This document shows, one piece after another, positions 6,119 through 13,302 of a DNA stretch of 64,000 bases. This DNA is from Pirellulales bacterium (GTDB taxonomy: Bacteria; Planctomycetota; Planctomycetia; Pirellulales; JAEUIK01). The notes under the pieces were generated by a model that had not been told where the DNA came from, ran no database searches, and saw only the letters and a list, made by a program, of their open reading frames with translations. The stretch's first letter is position 1; each line of letters begins with the position of its first letter. The stretch is from assembly GCA_019745975.1 (NCBI GenBank), contig JAIESQ010000061.1, positions 1-64,000 of the forward strand. Reading direction: 5' to 3'. The translations under genes were made by a program, and so were the position numbers.

Positions 6119-6412
6119 TCAGTTGCTATCGACGGGAGTCGCGTGCGGCGCTGAGAGTCGTAGCTCGACGATCCGCGCGTTGTGGCCGGCTGCTAGCAGC
6201 TTGTCGCAACAAGCGTCGGCCTGGGCGCGATAGTTGAACACGGCATACGGTTGCCAGTCCTGGTCTTGCATTACCAGCACGCGAAAGGCGTGGCGGCAAT
6301 TGACGACGGGCGTGTCGACCGCGAGTCGGTCGGCTAGCGTCGAACCAAGCAGCATAAAGAGCTCTCGTGCCTGGGTATCGGTTATGCGGAGCGAACATGG
6401 CCGCCTGACCAT
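6119..6412 (-). CDS. Small conserved-looking hypothetical protein
   Basis: A 97-residue protein with mixed, gene-like composition. The N-terminal half is variable. The C-terminal half reads HAFRVLVMQDQDWQPYAVFNYRAQADACCDKLLAAGHNARIVEL. This alternation of strands and a helix suggests a small alpha/beta fold, a little like SPOR-type domains, though I do not recognise the family. It converges with the lactonase gene (21 bp between ends) and points away from the leu leader region. There is no strong ribosome site; GAGAG lies just upstream of the ATG. Confidence 0.55.
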   Translation of the reverse strand: MVRRPCSLRITDTQARELFMLLGSTLADRLAVDTPVVNCRHAFRVLVMQDQDWQPYAVFNYRAQADACCDKLLAAGHNARIVELRLSAPHATPVDSN

Positions 6413-6580
6413 GGCTCTCGCATGAGGAGGTGAAGGCGCGAGAGCGCAGGACTAGATCGGCAGAACAGGCGGCAAAGTTGAGCAGATTTGGATCCACGCC
6501 GATGTGGGGCTCCAGGCCGATAGCCATGGAAGGCGCTTATCTCGGGAGAATCCTACTAATCGAACCAGGTCGTATCGCCC

Positions 6581-6609
6581 TTGACGCCCCAAAACCCGAC
6601 ACTTAGAGT
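6581..6609 (+). promoter_or_regulatory. Promoter of the leu leader
   Basis: TTGACG (6581-6586) and TAGAGT (6604-6609) are separated by exactly 17 bp, matching 5 of 6 and 4 of 6 sigma-70 consensus positions. The predicted start near 6616 would begin the transcript at the first stem of the leader RNA, about 65 bases before the leader peptide. Confidence 0.65.
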
Positions 6610-6615
6610 GATTGA

Positions 6616-6655
6616 GACGCGGTTCGTGCCAGAACTTTCCCGTTAGAACCGCGTC
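6616..6655 (+). promoter_or_regulatory. 5'-end stem of the leu leader RNA
   Basis: A perfect 10-bp inverted repeat (GACGCGGTTC at 6616-6625, GAACCGCGTC at 6646-6655) encloses a 20-nt loop. It starts where the predicted transcript starts, so it may protect the 5' end or form the first stem of the attenuator. A DNA operator is the alternative. Confidence 0.5.
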
Positions 6656-6680
6656 GCGAAGTACGCGATCGGTGAACCTC

Positions 6681-6743
6681 ATGTTGCGGCTCGTGCTCCT
6701 TCTAGGACTGCGACTACTCGGCCTTACCGTGGCCGGGCCGTAA
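6681..6743 (+). CDS. Leucine-rich leader peptide of the leuA attenuator
   Basis: An ATG with GGTGA five bases upstream opens a 20-codon frame, MLRLVLLLGLRLLGLTVAGP, ending in TAA at 6741-6743. Nine of the 20 residues are leucine, and they are encoded by a mix of codons (TTG, CTC, CTT, CTA, CTG), including runs of three and two. This is the composition expected of a peptide whose translation senses charged leucyl-tRNA, as in enterobacterial leuL. It lies between a good promoter and a perfect intrinsic terminator upstream of leuA. It is too short for ordinary gene finders. The call rests on composition and position and is not proven by homology. Confidence 0.8.
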   Translation: MLRLVLLLGLRLLGLTVAGP

Positions 6744-6787
6744 GGGGATCGTTCGCCGGTTTCGTATACCAAGACATCGCGAACCCC
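6744..6787 (+). promoter_or_regulatory. Candidate antiterminator of the leuA attenuator
   Basis: GGG plus GTTCGC (6745-6747 and 6751-6756, with a 3-nt bulge) can pair with GCGAAC plus CCC (6779-6784 and 6785-6787). This pairing would occupy the 5' half of the terminator stem. A ribosome that finishes the leader peptide at the stop codon (6741-6743) would cover the left half and allow termination. A ribosome stalled on the leucine codons would leave it free and block termination. An alternative stem, CCTTAC (6722-6727) / GTAAGG (6740-6745), could act as the pause or protector hairpin. Confidence 0.6.
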
Positions 6788-6821
6788 AAGGCCCAGCCGG
6801 TTGCCTTGGGGTTCTTTTTTT
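6781..6821 (+). terminator. Intrinsic terminator (attenuator) upstream of leuA
   Basis: A perfect 12-bp stem (GAACCCCAAGGC at 6781-6792, GCCTTGGGGTTC at 6803-6814) has a 10-nt loop and runs straight into seven T residues (6815-6821). It sits 38 bases after the leader peptide stop and 309 bases before leuA, the right order for a regulated terminator. The 6822-7130 stretch between it and leuA shows nothing further that I can name. Confidence 0.85.
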
Positions 6822-7130
6822 GTGATCAGCGTGAGTTGGGTTGTGGACAAGTTCGCCAGTTCGTCAGGCGATGGGATCGCATCGATGAAGTTCGCCCCAT
6901 CACAGAATACTCGGCGCGTGCAGCGCGCCGGCAGGGCCCGCCTGTTGCTACGCGCGCCGACCAGGGGTCGGCCTGCCCAAGCGTGATCAGGTTCTCAATC
7001 TCCAACTTTCAACCGTTCGGCATCGCCAAGCTCTACCCACGACGCGCGCGTCGGAGCGCTGTCTCAGGCCCGCGCGGCGAGTTAAGCTGGCGATGCGACG
7101 GCTGCCAACCTAGAAGGCCCTGCGATAACC

Positions 7131-8693
7131 ATGTCCGACATTCGACCCATCCGCATCTTCGACACCACGCTGCGCGACGGCGAGCAATCGCCTGGCTGCA
7201 GCATGAACATCGCCGAGAAACTGGAAATCGCCCAGGCGCTGGCCGACCTCAAGGTCGACATCGTCGAGGCGGGTTTTCCGATCGCCTCGCCTGGCGATTT
7301 TGAGGCTGTCCGGCAAATTGCCGGCGCCATCCGCGGCGTGACGATCTGTGGCCTGGCCCGCGCCAACAACGAGGATATCGACCGCGCGGCCGAAGCGCTG
7401 CGCGAAGCCGAGCAACCGCGCATTCACGTCTTTCTCGCCACCAGCGCCATTCATCGCGAGTTCAAGCTCAAGATGACGCAAGAAGAGTGCATCGCGCGGG
7501 CAGTCGCCGGCGTGAAGCGCGCCAAGGGCTACGTCGACGACATTGAGTTCTCGCCCGAGGACGCCGCGCGGACCGAAATCGACTTTCTCTGCCGGGTGGT
7601 CGAAGCGGCAATCGCGGCCGGCGCCACCACGGTCAATATTCCTGACACGGTCGGTTACGCCACGCCGGCGCACTATGCGGGAGTGATCCGGTCGTTGATC
7701 GAGCGCGTGCCGAACATCGACCGCGCCGTGGTGAGCGTACACTGCCACGACGACCTTGGCCTGGCAGTCGCCAATAGCCTGGCGGCGGTCGAGGTCGGCG
7801 CTGGCCAGATCGAGTGCACGATCAATGGCATCGGCGAGCGGGCCGGCAACTGCTCGCTGGAAGAAGTCGTCATGGCGCTCAAGACGCGCCAGGACTACTA
7901 CAAGGCCGATACCCGAGTCGTCACGCAGCGCCTCGTGCCCACCAGCCGGCTGGTCTCGAACATCACGGGCATGCAGGTGCAGCGCAACAAGGCGATTGTC
8001 GGTCGCAACGCATTCGCTCACGAAGCCGGTATTCACCAGGACGGCTTTCTCAAGGAGCGCACCACCTACGAAATCATGCGCCCCGAAGACGTCGGCTTCG
8101 GCAAGACCGATCTCGTATTGGGCAAGCACAGCGGCCGGGCCGCGCTGGCCGATCGGGCCCGCGCGTTGGGCTACCACCTCGAGAGCGATCAGCTCGTGCG
8201 CGTCTTCGAACAGTTCAAGCTGCTGGCCGATAAGAAGAAGGAGCTCTACGACAGCGATCTGGCCGCGCTCATCGAGCAGCAAATTCGCGAAGTACCCGAG
8301 CAATGGAGCTTCGCTCGTTACACGTCGGCGGCGGGAACCGATGAGGTTCCTACCGTGCGACTCACGCTGCGTCGCGGCGAGGAAGAAGTGTCGTGCGAAA
8401 TGGCGCGCGGCGACGGTCCGATCGACGCCATGTTTCTGGCCGTCGAGCAAATCACCGGTGTCGAGGTGCGCGTGCGCGATTTCCAGGTACACAGCGTCTC
8501 GGTCGGTAAAGACGCGCAGGCCGAAGTGACTGTGGAGGTCGAGCATCGCGGCAACACGTTTCGCGGTCGTGGCGTGTCGACCGATAGTCTCGAAGCCAGT
8601 GCCCGCGCATTCCTGGACGCGATCAACCGAGCTAGTGCAGGCTACTCGAGCGCCCTGGCGACGGCGGCTGCCCACGCGGCGCCTTCGGCGTGA
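7131..8693 (+). CDS. leuA: 2-isopropylmalate synthase
   Basis: A 520-residue protein catalysing the first committed step of leucine synthesis, condensation of acetyl-CoA with 2-ketoisovalerate. The N-terminal HMGL-type barrel carries [13 protein letters not shown] at about residues 9-21, the metal-site HCHDD at 204-208, and NGIGERAGN. The linker has HEAGIHQDG and LGKHSGR. The C-terminal 130 residues match the LeuA dimer regulatory domain that binds leucine, so feedback inhibition is expected. Length is typical of the full regulated enzyme. Expression is probably also controlled by the attenuator at 6581-6821. No other leu gene follows in this window. Confidence 0.95.
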
Positions 8694-8791: not shown

Positions 8792-11700
8792 TCAATCGCC
8801 CCGCAATGCAGGTATGAGCGGCGCGGCCAGGCTGGCGCGCACGGCGAACCAGCCCGCCGCAAGCCCCACGGAGAGCACCAGTGCCAGCGTCGCAGCCAGC
8901 GATAGCCAGGGTACGGCCGCCGTGCGTGCGATGAGATGCGGCGCCACGGCCACCAGCGCCGCGAGTAAACCGATCGCCAACCCGCCCGCTAACAACACCG
9001 CGTTCTCGGCCAGCACCAGCCAGGCCAACGTGCCGGTGCGAAAGCCGACCGCGCGCAAGAGCGCCAACTCACCGCGGCGTTCGAGCACGTTGCGCAGTTC
9101 GACGACGATCAAGCCCAACGTCCCTAGCAATAGCCCCAAGCCCCCCAGACTCTGAAAGGTCGAAAGGTAAGTGTTCTGCACAACCAGAAACGCAGCCAGT
9201 CGATCGCTCGACAATTGCGCATCGAAGCCATAGTCGCCGAGGCTCTTTTCGAGTGTCGTCTCGACGGCGACGCGGCGCTCGGCCGGGCAATCGATCAAGA
9301 AAAAACGGTACCCGCTAAGCTCCGGGAATTGTTCGATGAGCGTCCGTTGGCTCATCAAGATATCCCCCTGGAGAAGACTGTTTTTCAAGAGCCCGACAAC
9401 GAGACAGTGCACGCTCGGTACTTTCGACGCTTGTGGGTTCGCGTCCCAGCGCGGCAAGTCGTAGCGTGCGCCCACGCCCGACAGATGCAAGCTGTAGATC
9501 GCCGTGGCGGCGTCGAGCACCACAGGCACGAGCGGCGCGCCGTCGGCGGCCCGTCCCCAATCGCGTTCCAACAGCAGCCAGGGGTTCGCGCGTTCGGCCT
9601 CGGTCTCGGCGAGCGTTGCGCCCCACTGAAAACCGCCGCGCGCGAGCAATTCGCGCGGCAGCCCCAGCACGCGCGGCTGTTGCGGCTGATAGAGGTTCAA
9701 GCAACTGGCATCGTCGCCTTGTCGCACGCGTATCGGGTAGATCCTGGCGCCGGCCAACACAACGGCTTCTGCTGGAGTCAGGCTCAACGTCTCGGGCGCA
9801 GACAAGTCTTGGTAGATCGGCTGATCGCTTTCGGCCACGAGCGCGAATCCCCCCGTGCCAGACTGTCGATCCGCCGCATCTTTGGGCGCGTCCAAGCGAA
9901 ACGCGCTCACGGCCACGATCAAGAAGACGGCCGCTGCCACCAGGCCGATCGAGAGGACGCTGCGCCCTGGATGGCGTGCGGCGTTGCGCAGCGCCAATCG
10001 CGCAAGGGCTCCGCTGCCGCGGGTCACGAGCGGAGCGGTTTCGCCGCTCCGCAAACGGCTCCAGAGCAAGGCGAGCAGACCGATGAGTACTAGCGCGCCA
10101 GAGCCGAAAAACGCGCCGGCTTGAGCCTCCCCTGAAAGCGTCAAGGCCATGGCTGCCAAGGCGGCCCCAGCAACGAGCGCTCCGATTCCGACGAACCTCG
10201 GCAACGGGCGTGGTGCGGATCGCCCCGGAGCGTCAGAGGCTTCAACCTTGCCGGCCAACAGCGTGCGGGCCTCGCGTTTGGCCAGTCGCCGTAGCGACTG
10301 CGCGATTGCCAACCAAGCGACCACCACACCACTGACGAATCCGATCGCCAAGCTCGCAGGCGTGAAATAGAGGTTGACAAAGGGACTCGTGATCGCGGCG
10401 ACCCACCAGGTGCGCAGGCCGGCGACCATCAGCGCCGCGTAGGCAAGTCCCAGGAGCACGCCCACTGCACCGCCCAGCAGGCTCACGACCAGGCCTTCTG
10501 CTGCCCACAGGCGTCGAATTCTCTTGCTTGGCCATCCCAGTGCCCTGAGCAACCCGATCTGCTCGGCCCGACCATCGACGGCCAGCCGGAACAACAGCGC
10601 CACCAGCATCACCGCGGCGGCGATCAGAAAGAAACTGAAGCCCAAGAACAAACCGTTGAAGGGCGTGGTTCCGGTCGCGGCCTCAAGCGCCAGCGCGCGC
10701 ACCGGCTGAAAATGAAAGCCCAACTCACCCGGATCCAGGTGCAACTTCGCCGCAACCTGTTCGGTCGTGGTTCCGCCCGGCGGCGCCACGCGCACCGAGG
10801 TCGCGTCGCCAAACCGGCTTCCCCATAACTTCTGAGCGGTCGCCAACGACACGAACGCCTTGGGCGTCGGGCCGTGATCATCCCAATAGGCTTCGTCCTC
10901 GCTGCGGATCCGCTTGCCATCGAACGGAAACGGCGGGTTCCAGTCGGCCATCGAAACTTGATCGGTCACCCCCTTGAGCTTGGGAGTCAGCAAGCGATCG
11001 TCGGCCGCCCCCTCGAGCTTCACGATGTGTGCCAGCCGGAAGCTGCGGCGATCTTCTTCCACTCGCCCGTGCGTGCTCTCGGGCTTGAAGTAGACGACAT
11101 CGATCCGGTCGCCGACCTTCGCGGCAAGCTGCTCGGCGGCCCAACTGTTCAGCGCGATTTCGTCGTCGCCGAGGGGCGTCAGGGGCTCGCCCGTCTCGGT
11201 GACAAACGGCCCGAGCGGCGACTCGACGAACGGGTCGATGCCCGTGATCGTCGAATACGGAATCTCACGATCCCCGCTAGCAATCGTGTTCGCCAGATAA
11301 GTGAACGCCACCTGCGTGGGCCACGGCGCGAAACTCTTGCGCGCTGCGCGCACCACTTCAGGCTCCAAGATCATTCGCTCGCTTGACAAATCGAAGTAGC
11401 CGCGCGGCGTCTGCTCGAGCCTTAAGCCATAGTCGACGAACTGGGGATGCAGTGCGGCGTCCAGTTGCTCGACATTGCTTGGACGCGAGGCGGCGTCGGT
11501 CGTCACGGAGTCGTGCGATCCATTCGCGTTCAGGCTGGCAACGATCGCGTTGACATTCGCCGGCTGATCGAGCGCCCGCTGCAGCGTAGGCAGCGATACG
11601 AAAGCGTTTAGCGGCGTGCGCTGCGAAGGATTCAACCCAAAGCGCGCCAGCCCCGCGGCCGGCACGATCTTCGCTACCGTCAAGCGGAGATTGCGTACCG

Positions 11701-12247
11701 TCTCGGTCTTGCGCCCCAGCGGGCTATCGGCCGGCACATCGCCCGGGCTCGGCAACCGCACGATGACGGACGGCAGCTTGCCAGTCGCTCCTCGCTCCGG
11801 CAAGCGGATTCCCAATTCGCGTGCCAACGGCTCGGTGAGGATCACGTGGCCGACGCCGGGCACCCGATCGCCGGCCGGGAACGAGTCGAGCTCCCAGAAC
11901 CGCTCGTCGCAACCGATCATCGTGACGCGCGTCGCTCGACGATGAGTCTCGGGCTCTTCGGCCGAACCTTCGACGAGCACGATGGGGACGACGGACGCAG
12001 TCTGCCGGTAAATGCCAGCCGCGATTTCATCCGCCAGTGCCGCGCGAAAGAACTGCGGCCGAGCCAATACCGCATCGATGCGCCCCAAGCGGTCGAGGGC
12101 CAGGTGTTTCAAGCTTCCACGAACCGAATCGCCCACCAGCAGCGCACCCGTCAGCACCGCGGTGCCCACGGCCACTCCTAGCGCGATGGCGACGTTCATG
12201 CGCCAATGATGGAGGACGCTGCGAATGACCAGCCGCCAGAATGACAC
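8792..12247 (-). CDS. Very large FtsX/MacB-type ABC transporter permease
   Basis: About 1151 residues from a GTG at 12247, chosen because GGGAG lies 11 bases upstream and the protein then begins SFWRLVIRSVLHHWRMNVAIALGVAVGTAV, a typical permease start. Following the first helix is a large extracytoplasmic region of about 450 residues. A first FtsX core lies near 525-690 (LLRALGWPSKRIRRLW motif), with a second periplasmic stretch and a final FtsX core near 1025-1145 (ALLRAVGFRTGTLAWLVLAENAVLL). This duplicated layout matches lipoprotein-release or export permeases fused as one chain. No ATPase gene is adjacent, so its partner lies elsewhere. The frame is open back to 12487, but that part overlaps the metF region. 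Confidence 0.85.
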   Translation of the reverse strand: MSFWRLVIRSVLHHWRMNVAIALGVAVGTAVLTGALLVGDSVRGSLKHLALDRLGRIDAVLARPQFFRAALADEIAAGIYRQTASVVPIVLVEGSAEEPETHRRATRVTMIGCDERFWELDSFPAGDRVPGVGHVILTEPLARELGIRLPERGATGKLPSVIVRLPSPGDVPADSPLGRKTETVRNLRLTVAKIVPAAGLARFGLNPSQRTPLNAFVSLPTLQRALDQPANVNAIVASLNANGSHDSVTTDAASRPSNVEQLDAALHPQFVDYGLRLEQTPRGYFDLSSERMILEPEVVRAARKSFAPWPTQVAFTYLANTIASGDREIPYSTITGIDPFVESPLGPFVTETGEPLTPLGDDEIALNSWAAEQLAAKVGDRIDVVYFKPESTHGRVEEDRRSFRLAHIVKLEGAADDRLLTPKLKGVTDQVSMADWNPPFPFDGKRIRSEDEAYWDDHGPTPKAFVSLATAQKLWGSRFGDATSVRVAPPGGTTTEQVAAKLHLDPGELGFHFQPVRALALEAATGTTPFNGLFLGFSFFLIAAAVMLVALLFRLAVDGRAEQIGLLRALGWPSKRIRRLWAAEGLVVSLLGGAVGVLLGLAYAALMVAGLRTWWVAAITSPFVNLYFTPASLAIGFVSGVVVAWLAIAQSLRRLAKREARTLLAGKVEASDAPGRSAPRPLPRFVGIGALVAGAALAAMALTLSGEAQAGAFFGSGALVLIGLLALLWSRLRSGETAPLVTRGSGALARLALRNAARHPGRSVLSIGLVAAAVFLIVAVSAFRLDAPKDAADRQSGTGGFALVAESDQPIYQDLSAPETLSLTPAEAVVLAGARIYPIRVRQGDDASCLNLYQPQQPRVLGLPRELLARGGFQWGATLAETEAERANPWLLLERDWGRAADGAPLVPVVLDAATAIYSLHLSGVGARYDLPRWDANPQASKVPSVHCLVVGLLKNSLLQGDILMSQRTLIEQFPELSGYRFFLIDCPAERRVAVETTLEKSLGDYGFDAQLSSDRLAAFLVVQNTYLSTFQSLGGLGLLLGTLGLIVVELRNVLERRGELALLRAVGFRTGTLAWLVLAENAVLLAGGLAIGLLAALVAVAPHLIARTAAVPWLSLAATLALVLSVGLAAGWFAVRASLAAPLIPALRGD

Positions 12248-12331
12248 GATGAGTCGGCTCCCACGGAGCAAAACAGGATGAATGAACGACCGCGAACCCA
12301 ACGATCGTAGCGCCGCGATAGGTCGGCCGGC

Positions 12332-12360
12332 CTGCCAGCGACACGTTAGCTGGCTATAAT
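12332..12360 (+). promoter_or_regulatory. Promoter of metF
   Basis: CTGCCA (12332-12337) and a perfect TATAAT (12355-12360) are 17 bp apart. The expected start near 12367 leaves a leader of about 50 bases before the metF ATG at 12418. Confidence 0.6.
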
Positions 12361-12417
12361 CTACCAACTCGCGGGCACCTGCACCGCCGTCGTCGTCGCA
12401 ACCCGTTGGAACCGAGC

Positions 12418-13302
12418 ATGCGCATCGCGGAAGCCTACGGACCAAACAAGTTTGCTCTGTCCTTCGAACTGTTCCCGCCGAAGACACCGGCGGGCGATGA
12501 GGAATTGGACCGGCACCTGGCCGAATTGATGCGCTTCGAGCCGTCGTTCGTCACGTGTACGTACGGCGCGGCAGGGTCGACGCGCGACAAAACTCTCGAG
12601 GTGGTGTCGCGGGTGCATGTGCGGTATGGGACCACCGTCGCGGCGCACCTGACGTGCGTCGGGTCGTCGCGTGACGACTTGCGCGACTACCTCCGCGAAG
12701 CTCAGGCGCGGGGTGTCGAGAACATCGTTGCCCTGCGCGGCGACCCACCGCGGGGAGAGAAGGTCTTCCGCCCTGCGGCCGATGGGCTCCGCTATGCCAA
12801 CGAATTGGTAGCGCTGCTGCGGGCCGAGTTCCCGCAGTTTGGCATTGCCGTGGCCGGCTACCCGGAAACGCACCAGGAGGCGCCCAGTCCCGAAGTTGAT
12901 CTTGAGAATCTCGCCCGCAAAGTGGCCGCTGGCGCGGACGTCGTCATTGCCCAGTTGTTCTACCAGAATGCCGATTTCTTTCGCTTTCGCGACAAGTGCG
13001 CGGCCCAGAAGATTCAGGTGCCGATCGTGCCCGGCGTCTTGCCGATCACCAATCTGGCGCAAATTCGTCGCATTACGGATCTCTGCGGCGCCAAGTTACC
13101 TGCCAGTCTTGTCGCCAATCTTGAAGCTTGCGGCGACTCGACCGACGCGCAGTTCGAGGTCGGCGTCGATTTCGCTACCCGCCAGGTCCAAGAACTGCTC
13201 GATGCCGGCGTGCCGGGGTTGCACTTCTATGTGTTGAATCGTTCGGCGGCCACCGTCCGCGTGCTGGGGAACGTGCGACACTCGGCTCGCGCCGGTTGCT
13301 AG
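12418..13302 (+). CDS. metF: Methylenetetrahydrofolate reductase
   Basis: A 294-residue FAD-dependent TIM-barrel enzyme that reduces 5,10-methylene-THF to 5-methyl-THF for methionine synthesis. Diagnostic segments are FELFPPKT near the start (with the catalytic Glu), FVTCTYGAAGSTRDKT, VENIVALRGDPP, VAGYPETH, and DVVIAQLFYQNADFFRF. The usual length for bacterial MetF is 280-310 residues. ATG 12418 is preferred over an upstream TTG at 12406. It is divergent from the FtsX-type permease gene, and the intergenic region carries a strong TATAAT box. Confidence 0.94.
   Translation: MRIAEAYGPNKFALSFELFPPKTPAGDEELDRHLAELMRFEPSFVTCTYGAAGSTRDKTLEVVSRVHVRYGTTVAAHLTCVGSSRDDLRDYLREAQARGVENIVALRGDPPRGEKVFRPAADGLRYANELVALLRAEFPQFGIAVAGYPETHQEAPSPEVDLENLARKVAAGADVVIAQLFYQNADFFRFRDKCAAQKIQVPIVPGVLPITNLAQIRRITDLCGAKLPASLVANLEACGDSTDAQFEVGVDFATRQVQELLDAGVPGLHFYVLNRSAATVRVLGNVRHSARAGC

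Follow-up and report, generated by a model that had tools for sequence, protein, structure and literature searches.

We identified upstream of leuA in a planctomycete genome an element that is very probably a ribosome-mediated transcription attenuator reporting the supply of charged leucyl-tRNA, as judged from its sequence and from its conservation among relatives. The element lies on the forward strand of the window, that is, the whole stretch of 64,000 nucleotides that was analysed, and its parts are collected in Table 1.

The initial annotation had listed a promoter with 17-bp spacing, a 5′ stem, a 20-codon leader peptide with nine leucines, and a perfect 12-bp terminator followed by seven T residues, and we located all of these in the window. 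The leader, MLRLVLLLGLRLLGLTVAGP, was verified base by base, with nine Leu among 20 codons from the ATG at 6681 to the stop TAA at 6741-6743; the promoter-like site TTGACG-17-TAGAGT was found at 6581-6609, and the terminator with its T-run occupies 6781-6821. The RNA from 6612 to 6823 folded far better than shuffled sequences (z -5.85), and none of 200 shuffles reached its stability. The 5′ stem was present in the window both by direct reading and in the fold, but it was not general, as an unusually stable 5′ segment was found in 8 of 49 relatives; the 5′ stem is therefore probably dispensable for the attenuator. The downstream gene was assigned to leuA by profiles NF002086 (761 bits, cut-off 532) and TIGR00973 (726 bits, cut-off 599). 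It starts 309 bases after the T-run and about 390 bases after the leader stop.

Table 1. Coordinates of the leuA leader element and of leuA in the window
Feature	Positions	Strand	Basis
Promoter-like site TTGACG-17-TAGAGT	6581..6609	+	Sole sigma-70-like match in 6200-7300
5′ stem, 10-bp outer inverted repeat gacgcggttc...gaaccgcgtc	6616..6655	+	Direct reading, MFE fold
Shine-Dalgarno-like GGTGA, 5 bases 5′ of leader ATG	6671..6675	+	Direct reading
Leader peptide ORF MLRLVLLLGLRLLGLTVAGP + TAA	6681..6743	+	Direct reading
Predicted antiterminator left arm GGCC gTAA GGGG atcg TTCGC, spanning the leader stop codon	6736..6756	+	Fold; conserved in relatives
Predicted antiterminator right arm GCGAACCCCaaGGCC, common to terminator left arm	6779..6793	+	Fold
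Intrinsic terminator hairpin GAACCCCAAGGC/GCCTTGGGGTTC, perfect 12-bp stem, 10-base loop	6781..6814	+	Direct reading; -25.0 kcal/mol
T7 run of terminator	6815..6821	+	Direct reading
leuA, 2-isopropylmalate synthase, putative regulated gene	7131..8693	+	NCBIfam NF002086, TIGR00973

Between the terminator and leuA, another hairpin, GCCGACCnnGGGTCGGC, was seen at 6945-6975. A similar hairpin together with the preceding sequence TTGgTgcTaCccGG also occurs at loci L003, L008, L022, L031, L056 and L064, some of which were read without correction for strand, and the exact pattern occurs a single time in the window's genome. This hairpin may be a second element conserved 5′ of leuA. Both neighbours of the leuA unit are encoded on the minus strand. 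One (6119-6412) is a 97-aa ORF that gave no Pfam match, and the other (8792-12487) is a gene for a large FtsX/MacB-type permease.

It had also been proposed that a pairing could hide the left half of the terminator and that the geometry fits control by a ribosome, and folding of the leader RNA bears out both points. In the predicted antiterminator, the left segments GGCC (6736-6739), GGGG (6744-6747) and TTCGC (6752-6756) pair with GGCC (6790-6793), CCCC (6784-6787) and GCGAA (6779-6783), respectively. With a ribosome placed at the last Leu codon, the freed RNA up to the terminator loop folded as the antiterminator (-21.4 kcal/mol), and with a ribosome at the leader stop codon this pairing was lost and the terminator hairpin formed. 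The left arm overlaps the stop codon, and the last Leu codon usually lies three to six codons upstream of the stop (at least three in 67 of 71 leaders), so that by geometry a ribosome at the stop masks the arm and one at the control codons does not. When the right arm was present, the equilibrium fold favoured the terminator even under a stalled ribosome. Given that the terminator is favoured in both ribosome states at equilibrium, the switch would have to be co-transcriptional and kinetic, as is switching in classical attenuators. A strong 1:2 pairing that would hide the antiterminator arm and the leader start region in untranslated RNA was predicted in the window (duplex -47.5 kcal/mol, z 4.7), but this part of the four-segment trp-type layout was unsupported across the 71 loci (mean z 0.48, above 2 in 7 of them), and we rejected it as a general feature.

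From this arrangement we infer the following course of events. RNA polymerase would initiate near 6616, and a ribosome would translate the Leu-rich leader behind the polymerase. When Leu-tRNA is ample, the ribosome would reach the stop at 6741-6743 and cover the left arm of the antiterminator, the 6781-6814 segment would fold as the terminator, and transcription would end near 6821. Under a shortage of Leu-tRNA, the ribosome would stall upstream and leave GGCC...GGGG...UUCGC exposed, which may then pair with GCGAACCCC..GGCC once this has been made, so that the terminator would be pre-empted and leuA transcribed.

Conservation of the element was studied at the leuA loci of relatives. Each of the 58 relatives searched yielded a LeuA, in two cases only a distant homologue, and 80 named leuA loci, nearly all from planctomycetes, were included in the comparison. 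A leader was scored when it carried five or more Leu, with a Leu frequency of 22% or more, and lay shortly 5′ of a terminator. By this criterion, Leu leaders followed by a terminator were present at 82 of 135 leuA loci, including 42 of the 56 loci from the relatives, with both strands correctly oriented, and two shuffles of the whole set that preserved dinucleotide content gave none; a covariance model added a few more loci. The conserved Leu-rich frames that the initial annotation had expected upstream of leuA in relatives were thus recovered. At about 50 of the 135 loci, mostly belonging to a few clades, the element was not detected, and on the LeuA tree its presence changes five times, with absence concentrated in few clades. 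At least one member with the element was found in 18 of the 20 families sampled from the order, and MAG records named Rhodopirellula and Thermogutta are among those that have it. The closest relative (L002) carries the leader MILTSALLLASLLPLLPAGRP 5′ of the same terminator.

Across the leaders all six Leu codons occur, indicating that what is conserved is the amino acid, not the DNA. The leader stop is TAG in 58 of 71 cases, and in most relatives the last codons and the stop read GGCC[GT]TAGGGttcG, so that the end of the ORF doubles as the antiterminator arm. The promoter is also shared: a site matching at least 9 of 12 positions was found within 140 bases 5′ of 73% of the 71 leaders, compared with 4% in shuffles, and in the relatives it mostly reads TTGACC-17-TAnAnT. 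One record, L102 (JAHDXS010000002.1), is titled Alphaproteobacteria bacterium; its LeuA falls among planctomycetes on the tree and its leader, MTSSLGLLLLLLPAEAGR, is of the planctomycete type, and the record is probably a mislabelled or contaminated MAG.

A covarying stem had been anticipated as well, and the terminator provides it. In an alignment of 39 sequences, 8 of its 11 pairs showed pair-keeping changes on both sides, a number reached by none of 500 shuffles, and 33 double-change cells were counted against 7.9 in shuffles. The antiterminator pairs at the leuA loci form in 72.8% of cells, above any slid version of the pairing. Their covariation did not go beyond that of shuffles, in part owing to the near-invariance of both arms. 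Across 71 loci the antiterminator arms of the same locus scored higher than swapped arms (mean 24.0 vs 19.9, P 1e-7), a difference to which relatedness contributes.

We found the same chassis at genes of other amino acid pathways. The window's own genome was searched with a model built from the leuA leaders alone (R1). Besides leuA, this model matched C186:34770-34849 (E 4e-8), just 5′ of citramalate synthase (TIGR00977, 654 bits), where the leader MIARIAIIGDHLRP carries Ile codons, and C100:7351-7441 (E 1.7e-4), 5′ of DAHP synthase (NF006421), where the leader MQSTFVTRYWFWFTPSGHGAGGGL carries Phe, Tyr and Trp codons. We took the matches on C124, C162, C195, C48, C41 and C115 of the same genome to be either noise or ordinary 3′ terminators and rejected them. 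In the relatives, Ile/Val-rich leaders were found at 19 of 30 cimA loci (8 under a stricter criterion that counts Ile alone), and Phe/Tyr/Trp leaders at 21 of 30 DAHP-synthase loci, for example MNSVPAYAFGFWFYFTPIGRGAGGGS. When leaders were counted as Leu, Ile or aromatic, the numbers were 82, 3 and 6 at leuA, 2, 8 and 1 at cimA, and 1, 0 and 21 at aroF, a table close to diagonal. No leader was found at trpE (0/24), ilvB (0/24) or pheA (0/23) of the order, 0/71 in all. A second DAHP synthase paralogue of about 50% identity exists besides the attenuator-linked copy (G000:C200:64877-65875, and in many relatives), near a prephenate dehydratase gene.

In the DAHP-synthase version, the left arm of the predicted antiterminator is contained in the leader ORF, a few codons 5′ of the stop, and here the outer antiterminator pairs do covary (61 of 85 vs 49.1 in shuffles, with 0 of 10,000 shuffles as high), through the compensatory pairs GTC/GAC, GTT/AAC, ACC/GGT and ATC/GAT; relatedness may contribute to these figures. 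Phylum-wide, the model's matches to leuA leaders extended to another order of the class and to distant families. In distant families aromatic leaders (MKHYAVFYYFKYYRGGS) were also found 5′ of DAHP synthase, the genes there being named by eye from sequence, and many weak matches were rejected because they had no leader. A single case of a Phe leader, MHLSGRFFFFSNFTTGQVAGGGVS, with the same terminator type was seen in a distant family (L255, genome G068, family f33), 5′ of a gene that by eye resembles chorismate mutase/prephenate dehydratase. The exchange of codons on a fixed chassis fits ribosome stalling and not an aptamer or a protein-binding site, and the chassis with these other codons would be expected to control citramalate synthase through isoleucine and DAHP synthase through the aromatic amino acids. 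As evidence for codon sensing, the swapped codons at cimA and DAHP synthase are stronger than anything in the initial annotation.

The codon exchange also bears on whether the leader could instead be an RNA element bound by a protein or a small molecule, in which the Leu codons would be important as part of the RNA and not for what they encode. Such a role has been suggested for the actinobacterial LEU element, mutations of the leader codons in Streptomyces had effects on ilvB and leuA that are inconsistent with classical attenuation (PMC1262725), and the stop-codon region of the planctomycete leaders is nearly invariant in sequence. However, the leaders use all six Leu codons, these codons become Ile/Val at cimA and Phe/Tyr/Trp at DAHP synthase on an unchanged chassis, and the conserved parts that we saw are the terminator and the antiterminator, with no Rfam match; we consider a bound RNA element very improbable.

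It is extremely improbable that the hairpin only ends an upstream transcript, with the Leu-rich frame arising by chance and a leuA promoter lying within 6822-7130. The distance of 309 bases between the T-run and leuA speaks for this arrangement, but that interval contains no sigma-70-like site on either strand, the conserved promoter sits 5′ of the leader, and leader-terminator pairs at 82 of 135 loci stand against none in shuffles. Another way to use the leader would be for its translation to act on leuA translation, or through Rho-dependent polarity, with the hairpin being secondary. In a study of leader genes, re-initiation was proposed at short spacings in several phyla, among them Planctomycetes (PMC4833913). 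The leader stop here is about 390 bases from leuA, far past such spacing, and the intrinsic terminator with its T-run is present and covaries, so that this mode is hardly credible as the main one. A ribosome-mediated attenuator remains our preferred reading of the element.

That stalled ribosomes control amino acid synthesis is textbook knowledge for Proteobacteria, and so are the Leu leaders of enterobacteria. The planctomycete element resembles the leu attenuator of Escherichia and Salmonella (leuL; Rfam Leu_leader) in having a leader with Leu codons and an antiterminator competing with a terminator 5′ of leuA. In contrast to leuL, it has no Rfam match, its own left antiterminator arm overlaps the leader stop, its many Leu codons are scattered and of all six kinds, and the set lacks a conserved 1:2 pairing. 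The overlap with the stop and the lack of 1:2 pairing also set it apart from the trp-type scheme, as does the reuse of the chassis at three pathways. T-box riboswitches likewise respond to the charging state of a specific tRNA and govern termination 5′ of amino acid genes, whereas the planctomycete element carries a translated-type Leu, Ile or aromatic leader and not a specifier loop, and no T-box was matched by Rfam at 20 loci. The actinobacterial LEU element and the ilvB leaders share with it a Leu-rich leader ORF 5′ of leuA (PMC1262725). The LEU element, however, has a pseudoknot and a pairing of its Leu codons with the leuA Shine-Dalgarno sequence, and attenuation by it is doubtful (PMC1262725), whereas in the planctomycete element the terminator and antiterminator are of the standard type and lie far from where leuA starts; because of the distance of about 390 bases between leader and leuA, it is unlikely to be of the LEU type. 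In Staphylococcus aureus, a leucine-rich attenuator peptide controls branched-chain amino acid synthesis, according to the accessible part of the report (PMC5794164); this case belongs to another phylum and is likened to ours by description only.

The initial annotation had called for an Rfam search and was aware of no Leu leader in planctomycetes. The search returned no matching family: in 6200-7300 no amino acid leader family was among the matches up to E 10, weak matches to groES and suhB were rejected as far below their gathering scores, and at 20 loci tRNA was the only family matched, with no leader family. A 2010 survey described leader peptide systems as then known in Proteobacteria and Actinobacteria and added his leaders in bacilli (PMC2965389), and the accessible part of the leader-gene study that includes Planctomycetes deals with spacing and re-initiation and names no planctomycete attenuator (PMC4833913). 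We found no planctomycete attenuator in a literature search that did not cover the Lopatovskaya 2010 survey, which could contain a prediction, so that novelty is likely but not proved. The element is very probably an attenuator of a known kind in a phylum for which no description was found.

A further lead, which we do not count as a result, comes from the DNA downstream of leuA in some relatives. At 20 loci (L062:4085-4171, L064:4097-4182, L100:4122-4208, L079:3286-3373 and 16 more), leuA is followed on the same strand, at a distance of 14-859 bases, by a tRNA-Leu(UAA) gene, and all 20 have the leader. The UUA codon is read only by tRNA-Leu(UAA). UUA was present in 17 of 18 scorable linked leaders compared with 9 of 44 unlinked ones, and made up 31 of 120 leader Leu codons at linked loci against 8 of 306 elsewhere. 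Among linked loci with GC3 above 0.6, UUA accounted for 16 of 92 leader Leu codons but for 4 of 460 in the adjoining leuA genes; at unlinked loci the figures were 7 of 281 in leaders and 20 of 1338 in leuA. On the LeuA tree the tRNA linkage changes eight times, and in independent tree pairs the UUA trend was concordant in 3.2 on average and never reversed, too few for significance. The association of linkage with attenuator presence (18/64 vs 0/39) was rejected as independent evidence on the tree, because attenuator absence is confined to few clades. The window's own leuA locus has neither the downstream tRNA-Leu(UAA) gene nor the UUA trait. We tentatively suggest, while leaning somewhat against it, that in the linked relatives leuA and tRNA-Leu(UAA) may form one transcription unit whose UUA-containing leader would sense the very isoacceptor that the unit makes. 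If true, a tRNA gene would here be under feedback control exerted through stalled ribosomes.

Taken together, these results extend a single window to a family, in which one terminator/antiterminator chassis is found in most of the 20 families sampled from the order and recurs elsewhere in the phylum, with its sensing codons exchanged according to whether the gene encodes the first committed enzyme of leucine, isoleucine or aromatic synthesis. The swap of codons allows the mechanism to be tested, and in the tRNA-Leu linkage there may be an instance of a tRNA gene whose regulation runs through its own codon. The elaborate internal membranes of these bacteria have kept open the question of whether transcription and translation are coupled in them, and an attenuator of this kind would imply that the coupling is tight.
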